Shown here: piece after piece, positions 45,529 to 46,588 of the stretch | Position numbering within the stretch: position 1 is the first letter of the stretch | Layout: each line of letters begins with the position of its first letter | Assembly: GCF_000513995.1 (NCBI RefSeq) | Contig: NZ_AZVB01000001.1 | Location: 1-64,000 of the forward strand | Source: Pseudoxanthomonas sp. J35 | GTDB lineage: Bacteria > Pseudomonadota > Gammaproteobacteria > Xanthomonadales > Xanthomonadaceae | Reading direction: 5' to 3' | Length of the DNA: 64,000 bases | Position numbers and translations under genes: made by a program | Notes under the pieces: generated by a model | The model's input: only the letters and a program-made list of their open reading frames with translations | What the model was told of the DNA's origin: nothing | The model's database searches: none

Positions 45529-45768
45529 CAGCAACAGCAAAGGCGGTGGGCGCGTCGGCTTCGGACGGAGCCGCGGCAGTGCGAGGGGTATGCCGCATCG
45601 CGCGGTTCCGCGTCCGCGCCGGGAATGCGCCTGGGCGCTGGTGACGCCCGGCGCGTCGCCACGCGCCAGCAGCCTGACCGCTCGTACTGCGTTCGCGACC
45701 GCGGAACATCCACGCGCCGCTTGCAGCATCCCCCCGCATTGCCGCGCCTTCGGGCGCGTTCGGGTCAT
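45529..45768 (-). repeat. Structured repeat, copy C (inverted, diverged)
   Basis: Read on the minus strand it follows copies A and B: the CGCGCCCGA head, GCAAGCGGC...GTGGAT...CCGCGGTCGCG, then GGAACCGCGCGATGCGGCATACCCC, and a CTGTTGCTGTC end. About 70 extra bases sit in the middle. Several stem pairs are lost, including two in the inner hairpin, so it looks like an old copy. Confidence 0.75.
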
Positions 45769-45879
45769 GGCTTCGTTCTTGTTCCCCTCTCCTTGGGGCC
45801 GGGGGTGAGGGTCGGGGTCCTCGCGGCGCTGGAATGCCCCCGACCCCTCTCCGTGAGCGAGGGGCTAGACGCGTTTCTG

Positions 45880-45956
45880 GTAGAGCGGGGCTTGCCCCGC
45901 TGCCTTTCCCCGGCGTTGGGCCAGCCGGCGTGGGAGTCGGGCAAGCCCGACTCTAC
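45880..45956. repeat. REPIN: two GTAG-type REPs facing each other
   Basis: GTAGA followed by GCGGGGC-TT-GCCCCGC lies at 45880-45900. The mirror unit, AGTCGGGC-AA-GCCCGACT followed by CTAC, lies at 45935-45956. The head-to-head layout with a 34-base centre is the usual mobile form of REP sequences. The left core is identical to the single REP at 9903. Confidence 0.8.
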
Positions 45957-46002
45957 AGGGCGGCGCGACTTGCGGGATGACGGGCTCTTCGCGACGTCGA
46001 AA

Positions 46003-46214
46003 GAAGCCATGACCCCAACGCGCCCGAGGACGTCGTCCCACGGGGGTATGGCGCAAGCAGGCCATGGATGGCCTGCGGTCGCGCGTTGGAGCCATGGATG
46101 GCGGAACCGCGCGATGCGCCGCACCCCCGTGGGGCGGCGGCCCCGTCCGGAGCCCGTGCCTCCAACGCCTTTGCCTTTGCCTTTGCCGTGGCTGTGGCTG
46201 TGGCTGTGGCTGTT
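46003..46214 (+). repeat. Structured repeat, copy A
   Basis: The outer arms are 46037-46055 and 46115-46133 (17 Watson-Crick pairs of 19). They enclose the inner hairpin 46057-46063/46070-46076 (7 of 7 pairs) with loop ATGGAT. A GC-rich second inner stem follows. The right end is a period-6 tract, (GCCTTT)3 GCCGTG (GCTGTG)3 GCTGTT, at 46167-46214. Its first base matches copy B after AGAAGCC. Confidence 0.85.
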
Positions 46215-46372
46215 TGCTGACGCCACTAGCCTTCAGCATCCGGGGCGGGCATCCGACCGCGCCTCCCCAAAGCGTGGCGAGCGCATCCCCCGGATGCGGC
46301 CTGCGGCCTTACCCGGGCTACGACCGGTTTCTCCCCTCTCCCGGGGGAAGGCTCTGGTATCGCGCCGCCAAT

Positions 46373-46588
46373 AGAAGCCCTGGCCTCAACGCGCCCGAGG
46401 ACGTCGTCCCAAGGGGGTATGGCGCAAGCGGCACATGGATGTGCCGCGGTCGCGCGTTGGAGCAGGACGCGGAACCGCGCGATGCGCCATACCCCCTTGG
46501 AGCGGCGGCCCCGTCCGGAGCCCACGCACCCAACGCTGTTGCTGTTGCTGTTGCCGTTGCCGTTGCCGTTGCCGTTGCCGTTGCCGTC
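46373..46588 (+). repeat. Structured repeat, copy B
   Basis: The outer arms are 46408-46426 and 46483-46501 (18 of 19 pairs). The inner hairpin is 46428-46434/46441-46447 (7 of 7), again with loop ATGGAT. The tract (GCTGTT)3 (GCCGTT)5 GCCGTC lies at 46535-46588. Compared with copy A, three inner pairs and one outer pair are replaced on both sides. Confidence 0.85.

Follow-up and report, generated by a model that had tools for sequence, protein, structure and literature searches.

What keeps the stems of a repeat paired while their sequence changes, and what could read its unchanging loops? The question is raised by the gap between a CRP-like gene (ending at 45307) and pnp (ending at 46688) in Pseudoxanthomonas sp. 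J35, in which three copies of a structured unit reside, A, B and, in inverted orientation, C. The window analyzed is the whole stretch of 64,000 nucleotides (contig NZ_AZVB01000001.1, positions 1 to 64,000); loci outside it are given by L numbers. A first-pass annotation, made from the letters of the window, had noticed the three copies in this gene-free gap, and a covariance model places them there. The units fold as a three-way junction exposing two loops of the type bound by the regulator RsmA/CsrA. Judging from the sequences, we see about an even chance that they are dispersed RsmA/CsrA-binding RNA elements, the binding being a prediction. This link is new relative to the first-pass annotation.

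Fold, covariation and range of the unit

The core of the unit, about 125 nt long, is branched, and consists of a hypervariable stem of 25 pairs (P1) and two hairpins, P2 and P3. The first-pass annotation had described an outer stem and one inner hairpin, and overlooked P3, the loop of which is of the same kind. The inner arms are as it reported (GCAGGCC/GGCCTGC in A, GCGGCAC/GTGCCGC in B, both around the loop ATGGAT), exactly three of the seven pairs differ on both sides between the two copies, and the switch of one outer pair from C-G to A-T is real. The outer stem is present too, but is 25 rather than 19 pairs long, and features in copy A one A-C mismatch and one U-G within the 19.

Copies from 27 of 30 own-genome loci were aligned, L014, L022 and L028 being excluded as chimeric. 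In this set 96.5% of the cells pair, 18 of the 46 pairs change on both sides, and none of 500 shuffles did as well. In 94 copies (88 distinct) from several species, aligned from 54 hand-picked loci, the pairs changed on both sides are 42 of 46, and the covariation score of 0.556 compares with 0.155 for shuffles and no more than 0.072 for slid controls; the latter matter because the alignments were fitted to the model and the shuffles ignore relatedness. In the same copies all four Watson-Crick pairs are used at 15 of the 25 P1 positions, and P3, for which a pseudoknot with the 5' flank was also considered, is supported as a plain hairpin by changes on both sides in all of its seven pairs (88 distinct copies). 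In ten other genera (26 copies, 18 loci) 45 of the 46 pairs change on both sides. Chance is excluded as the source of the pairing. A search of the own and of Xanthomonadaceae genomes with a covariance model, followed by a covariation test, had been suggested at first pass; many copies and strong covariation were found, the opposite of the results (no other copies, or many devoid of covariation) named there as speaking against the family.

The window and 40 stretches fetched from the same genome contain 65 distinct copies, four of them weak: 61 correspond to 62 model rows minus one overlapping echo, and four are weaker matches of 35-43 bits. A DNA search of this genome gave 47 matches, the covariance model built on 27 copies 100 rows, opposite-strand echoes included. 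All the 61 copies tested lie outside genes, as called by a crude codon-based script. The 27-copy model has matches in 19 of 60 sampled genomes (the own genome, 14 of the 16 congeners sampled, and one genome from each of four other genera), a second model in 70 of 247 genomes and 20 of 54 genera of the family. Order-wide (299 genomes), all 20 genomes with matches belong to this family. A pattern scan of named genomes yielded 61 stretches. Besides Luteimonas saliphila and L. rhizosphaericola, the genomes holding them are from Pseudoxanthomonas species, among them P. suwonensis J47, which flank identity shows to be a near relative. Copy numbers are lower bounds, 150 of 5982 candidates having been scored, with at most 14 per genome in the family scan. 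Plasmids (two queries) and phages (one query) gave no unit match. From other genomes, 170 rows at 80 picked loci were cleared by hand of repeats and echoes, leaving 114 units; with the 65 own copies these make 179 places and 176 distinct sequences.

The folded strand and its loops

Random transitions in paired arms are expected to yield G-U and A-C in equal numbers. G-U and A-C are found in a ratio of 115:28 in P1-P3 of the own copies and, in P1 and P2, of 174:39 at the other loci and 40:5 in other genera (rows counted were 61 of 62 own and 110 of 150 other, pairs counted 41 and 32 of the 46). Columns richer in G-U than in A-C prevail 18:6 (own) and 19:5 (other; sign test p 0.023 and 0.0066, respectively). 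The strand favored is the one carrying the tail at its 3' end, and the excess of G-U over A-C in the well-supported helices points to one folded strand. The GTAG-type repetitive extragenic palindromic (REP) hairpins of the same stretches hold 4 G-U and 8 A-C (29 distinct sequences; small numbers). The folded strand looks like RNA, single-stranded DNA of the same strand being an alternative.

Arms might also be kept by DNA processes alone, such as quasi-palindrome correction and gene conversion, with no selection on RNA. Arm and apex alleles occur in different combinations among copies, and the P3 apex of copy B differs between orthologs (the J47 allele has six nucleotides, C-AGGGAU-G), both of which fit such processes. 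They predict equal G-U and A-C, whereas ratios of 4:1 to 8:1 are seen in P1-P3, or about 2:1 without the two richest columns, and they leave the fixed loops unexplained; this explanation is very improbable. Selection on the units at the RNA level is, on the whole of these data, highly probable. A functional RNA, one of the two options offered at first pass, is supported by covariation across species and genera, by the surplus of G-U that marks one strand, and by GGA loops that hardly vary.

Two sites C-A(N)GGAX-G, in which N is any base or absent and X mostly U or C, are found in 152 of the 176 distinct units, one in P2, the other at the P3 apex. Mononucleotide-shuffled units hold 0.11-0.13 such sites each, and the opposite strand has none in 171 of the 176 units. 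Minimum-energy folds display at least two GGA-containing loops in 49 of 65 own and 98 of 111 other units, the folds of the opposite strand in only 1 own and 2 other units. RsmA/CsrA recognizes A(N)GGAX exposed in a C-G-closed loop, and the binding loops of RsmZ span 5-8 nt, the hexaloop being the best (PMC4005645); the consensus obtained by systematic evolution of ligands by exponential enrichment (SELEX) is RUACARGGAUGU (PMC7652899). The loops of the units match the published high-affinity site, and two sites per unit suit a dimer, as RsmA/CsrA is. The own genome has one csrA gene with an intact open reading frame, the product of which begins MLILTRRVGETLMIG...

The same two-GGA-hairpin design is featured by a sister family, GAGCC(C/T)CCATGGA(N)GG(G/A)TTCACGGCGTGTC, which resides in 20 of 119 genomes and 11 of 54 genera, a single genome holding as many as 52 exact matches to the core. 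The family was retrieved by its P3 strand alone (a reversed control pattern was found 0 times among the matches listed). The loop test is less biased here, because P2 is not in the query: the loop is present in P2 at 18 of the 20 loci, but in only 4.9% of 45-nt stretches drawn from them at random. Folds have at least two GGA loops in 15 of the 20 loci. Further variation is seen in ten of the 176 distinct units of the main family, the long-P3 subtype, in which the P3 loop gives way to about 80 nt of conserved sequence rich in hairpins. Copy C has about 80 nt at this place, and a mutated P2 loop. A weak score for radC RNA (25.2 bits, cut-off 40, E 0.017) was noted in the long-P3 subtype.

We propose that selection keeps the strand on which the tail is 3' folded as a three-way junction, presenting its two C-A(N)GGAX-G loops to a common protein partner; the dimeric post-transcriptional regulator RsmA/CsrA is the likeliest candidate. 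Stems are free to change as long as pairing is kept, loops are not. Units would be transcribed and bound by RsmA, which might thereby be titrated, or might control those RNAs in which units lie.

Several observations weigh against this proposal. Twenty-four of the 176 units do not hold both sites, ten of them being long-P3 copies and most others altered in one loop. Many of the loci from other genomes were retrieved by a pattern containing the P2 loop, which biases their P2 counts, and the folds of the opposite strand show at least one GGA loop in 105 of the 176 units (50 own, 55 other). The strand bias drops to 118:86 (own) and 208:155 (other, a set still containing opposite-strand echo rows) once a weak 3' hairpin (helix 5) is counted, and falls to 54:26 and 90:38, respectively, without the two richest columns. 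Hairpins obtained by SELEX mostly had no more than four contiguous pairs (PMC7652899), and the stems of the units are longer; the small RNA (sRNA) RsmU of Xanthomonas campestris, once all its four predicted GGA motifs were changed, still bound RsmA in vitro (PMC7694677). No conserved promoter is visible by eye at the units, and terminator-like sites beyond the tails are not enriched (3 of 65 copies, 4.4 in shuffled sequences). In co-directional gaps 17 of 24 copies are antisense to both flanking genes, which disfavors a plain role as 3' untranslated region. The weak RsmW and RsmV scores given below stand among equally weak matches to unrelated families.

Layout, turnover and mobility

Units are often paired. 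Among 59 pairs of neighbors less than 700 bp apart, 51 are inverted (-+), heads together and tails outward, and these contain 20 of the 65 own and 82 of the 114 other units. According to labels assigned by a simple script on the 3' arm, 37 of the 51 inverted pairs are heterotypic (type-1 plus type-2), 10 are made up by a single type, and 4 are unclassified; in the own genome 10 of 10 are heterotypic.

Convergent gaps are over-represented: they make up 26 of the 50 gaps that bear copies, but 57 of all 302 gaps in the same stretches (61 copies analyzed; the 302 include the copy-bearing gaps), and the tail faces the 3' end of a gene in 50 of 61 copies, 33 of which lie in convergent gaps, where this is forced. 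This layout would suit a structured RNA with another partner or job, be it protection of mRNA 3' ends, attenuation, or binding of a different protein. A simple stabilizer would need no two loops obeying the same rule in two unrelated hairpins, and, overall, another partner or job seems unlikely.

The period-6 tails reported at first pass are real, and 3'-terminal in A and B, but are not general: at least three TTGCNN units within 130 nt downstream are found in 18 of 65 own and 20 of 114 other units, and upstream runs of at least two in 0 own and 2 other units. Tails are missing, on inspection, from 17 of 18 loci of other genera, and their length differs strongly between orthologs, the tail of copy B being far longer in J47. 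The hexanucleotide tail is an optional, unstable microsatellite, a genus-level extra. Thirteen of 15 arrays of at least four TTGCNN in the own stretches (chosen around copies) are located at the 3' end of a unit and in its orientation, as would be expected of a retroposon resembling short interspersed elements and ending in such a tail. The absence of the tail from many copies and from nearly all the loci of other genera, and of any RVT_1 (reverse transcriptase) match in the own genome, makes this origin hardly credible.

The window locus in J47, whose loci were retrieved because they hold units, contains C and B, and lacks A and the adjacent REP doublet. L236, L237 and L238, from one genus, match one another at about 95% on either flank, and the unit is present in all three. 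Some unit positions are old; gain, loss and allele exchange are found elsewhere.

A selfish DNA repeat would account for part of this picture. Similar to miniature inverted-repeat transposable elements or REPs, it would be moved in trans, a transposase reading the single-stranded DNA and the GGA loops serving as signal. Intergenic copies are dispersed, their best core identity within the genome reaches 98.4%, copy A and the REP doublet are missing from a J47 ortholog that holds B and C, and head-to-head heterodimers resemble REP dimers (PMC3733652). At odds with such an origin, the flank consensus shows no visible GTAG or CGTC tag, the core is of about 125 nt rather than 20-40 bp, and no unit lies within about 1.5 kb of any of 25 Y1_Tnp loci of the genus. 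Neither a target duplication nor a clean empty site is seen in the three ortholog pairs aligned, and no such strand bias is seen in the REP hairpins of the stretches that hold units (small numbers). A selfish repeat is, on balance, rather unlikely. The hairpin-recognized mobile unit, the other option of the first-pass annotation, agrees with dispersed copies, one of which differs between sister species; no partner enzyme, target duplication or clean empty site was found for it.

Four weak model matches (30.6 bits at most) at Y1_Tnp loci of the genus, in L251 and L254, are read as GTAG-type inverted repeats. The own genome has one Y1_Tnp, with no unit-model match in its locus, and neither Y1_Tnp nor RVT_1, the enzymes looked for, could be tied to units. 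Terminal inverted repeats and target duplications were not seen at the window locus and two ortholog pairs, the flanks of which are too divergent; the boundary alignments L121/L175 and L118/L165 are noisy. At L251:1020-2220, in a genome of the genus Pseudoxanthomonas, a Y1 transposase gene has GTAGGAGCTGGCTTCAGCCGGCGAC REP dimers on both sides, a REPtron.

The features of the locus are listed in Table 1. A short stretch, GAAGCC/GGAGCC...CCAACGC, is alike at both unit ends (e.g., 46003-46021 and 46145-46168), its 3' copy continuing into the hexamer tail. GTAG-type REPs are frequently located upstream of unit heads, as judged by eye. The gene at 44537-45307, beside the cluster, resembles the CRP-family regulator Clp. 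In Xanthomonas, Clp acts downstream of RsmA and cyclic di-GMP (PMC3528676); the vicinity of a Clp-like gene to the cluster is probably a coincidence.

Table 1. Position and basis of the features at the repeat locus of the window, and of related loci
Feature	Position	Strand	Basis
Copy A structured core (P1, P2, P3)	46027-46154	+	R1 covariance model 125.1 bits, E 2.2e-25
Copy A 5' flank GAAGCC...CCAACGC, conserved unit start	46003-46021	+	sequence and flank consensus of 65 own copies
Copy A hairpin P2, loop C-AUGGAU-G	46057-46076	+	sequence; RsmA/CsrA-type loop by published rule
Copy A hairpin P3, apical loop C-AUGGAU-G	46079-46114	+	sequence
Copy A hexanucleotide tail (TTTGCC)n/(GTGGCT)n	46169-46217	+	sequence
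Copy B structured core	46398-46522	+	R1 covariance model 139.6 bits, E 1.1e-28
Copy B 5' flank GAAGCC...CAACGC	46374-46392	+	sequence, flank consensus
Copy B P1 5' arm, pairs with 46483-46507	46402-46426	+	alignment of 27 own copies, sequence
Copy B hairpin P2, loop C-AUGGAU-G	46428-46447	+	sequence
Copy B hairpin P3, apical loop C-AGGAC-G (5-nt variant)	46450-46482	+	sequence
Copy B P1 3' arm	46483-46507	+	alignment of 27 own copies, sequence
Copy B hexanucleotide tail (NGTTGC)n	46536-46589	+	sequence
Copy C, inverted, degenerate long-P3 subtype	45557-45750	-	R1 59.3 bits, sequence
Copy C short tail remnant	45528-45545	-	sequence
GTAG-type REP doublet between heads of C and A; neighbor, outside the unit	45880-45956	.	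sequence
Sister-family loci	L268-L287 (20 loci), L228:1235-1347, L232:1691-1811, L241:1192-1311		
Long-P3 copies	window 45557-45750, L119:13041-13231, L154:6001-6194, L163:831-1022, and six others		

RsmA/CsrA regulation and known RNA and repeat families

Units binding RsmA/CsrA may be a missing piece of this regulatory system. RNAs antagonizing RsmA in X. campestris were, as of 2012, stated to 'have yet to be described' (PMC3528676), and RsmU has since been reported as one of them (PMC7694677); a family-wide RNA repeat carrying the RsmA loop makes the question of the antagonists directly testable. It may tentatively be suggested, on the sequence evidence, that the RsmA/CsrA sponge of Lysobacteraceae is a genome-wide population of tens of dispersed docking modules, each with two sites and often in inverted pairs. 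If so, units would spread like repeats and, jointly or via the RNAs carrying them, set the level of free RsmA, and the sister family would be part of the same system. This would be a seemingly new case of a bacterial intergenic repeat family selected as protein-binding RNA. The covariation is unusually strong, and useful for structure work.

In an Rfam scan of the window the sole match reaching its cut-off is a tRNA. Identities scoring below threshold on the repeats, namely radC, RsmW (24.9 bits on copy A, gathering score 52), RsmV (13 and 13.3 bits, gathering score 100) and several microRNA families, were rejected. A weak RsmV score (17.3 bits, E 1.1) was obtained at L047:1500-1840, in a genome from another family of the order, where partly masked GGA-loop hairpins neighbor a tRNA gene. 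That no described family fits, as stated at first pass, agrees with Rfam release 15 and with the available parts of open-licence PMC papers, a collection outside which most subscription journals lie.

Several A(N)GGAX loops on C-G-closed stems, the trait of the Csr/Rsm clan (CL00106), are found in the units, which reach none of the gathering scores of the clan. The sRNAs CsrB, CsrC, RsmX, RsmY, RsmZ, RsmV and RsmW likewise expose repeated A(N)GGAX loops closed by C-G, and reside at single or few loci with their own promoters; in contrast with CsrB/RsmZ-type sRNAs, the present element has two sites per unit and dozens of units. Homologues of CsrB/RsmZ-type sRNAs were not found in Xanthomonas, according to the available text of Tang 2020 (PMC7694677). 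RsmU (sRX061), which sequesters RsmA in X. campestris, a member of the same bacterial family, is also GGA-bearing and RsmA-bound, but the accessible part of its description makes no mention of a repeat (PMC7694677); the likeness is one of description.

TwoAYGGAY RNA (RF01731), proposed to bind CsrA on the same grounds, similarly carries a pair of hairpins, their loops of AYGGAY type, on an outer stem of weak conservation, and has tandem G-A in one stem (PMC4333381). The units share the design by the looser A(N)GGAX rule, and the tandem G-A may be compared with CGAG opposite CGAG, which several units from other genera show in P3. For the RF01731 covariance model no match to the units is listed up to E 10 (E 2 in one scan), and the present element differs in being multicopy, dispersed and often paired.

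A REP element is a palindrome of 20-40 bp, tagged GTAG or CGTC at one end (PMC3733652). The units differ in size and branching from REPs and bacterial interspersed mosaic elements of the GTAG and CGTC superfamilies, no terminal tag being seen and no association with Y1 transposases being found at the loci analyzed. They share with them an intergenic location, a multicopy state and frequent head-to-head heterodimers, and the spread of the copies would be best fitted by slowly turning-over intergenic repeats of REP-like organization.
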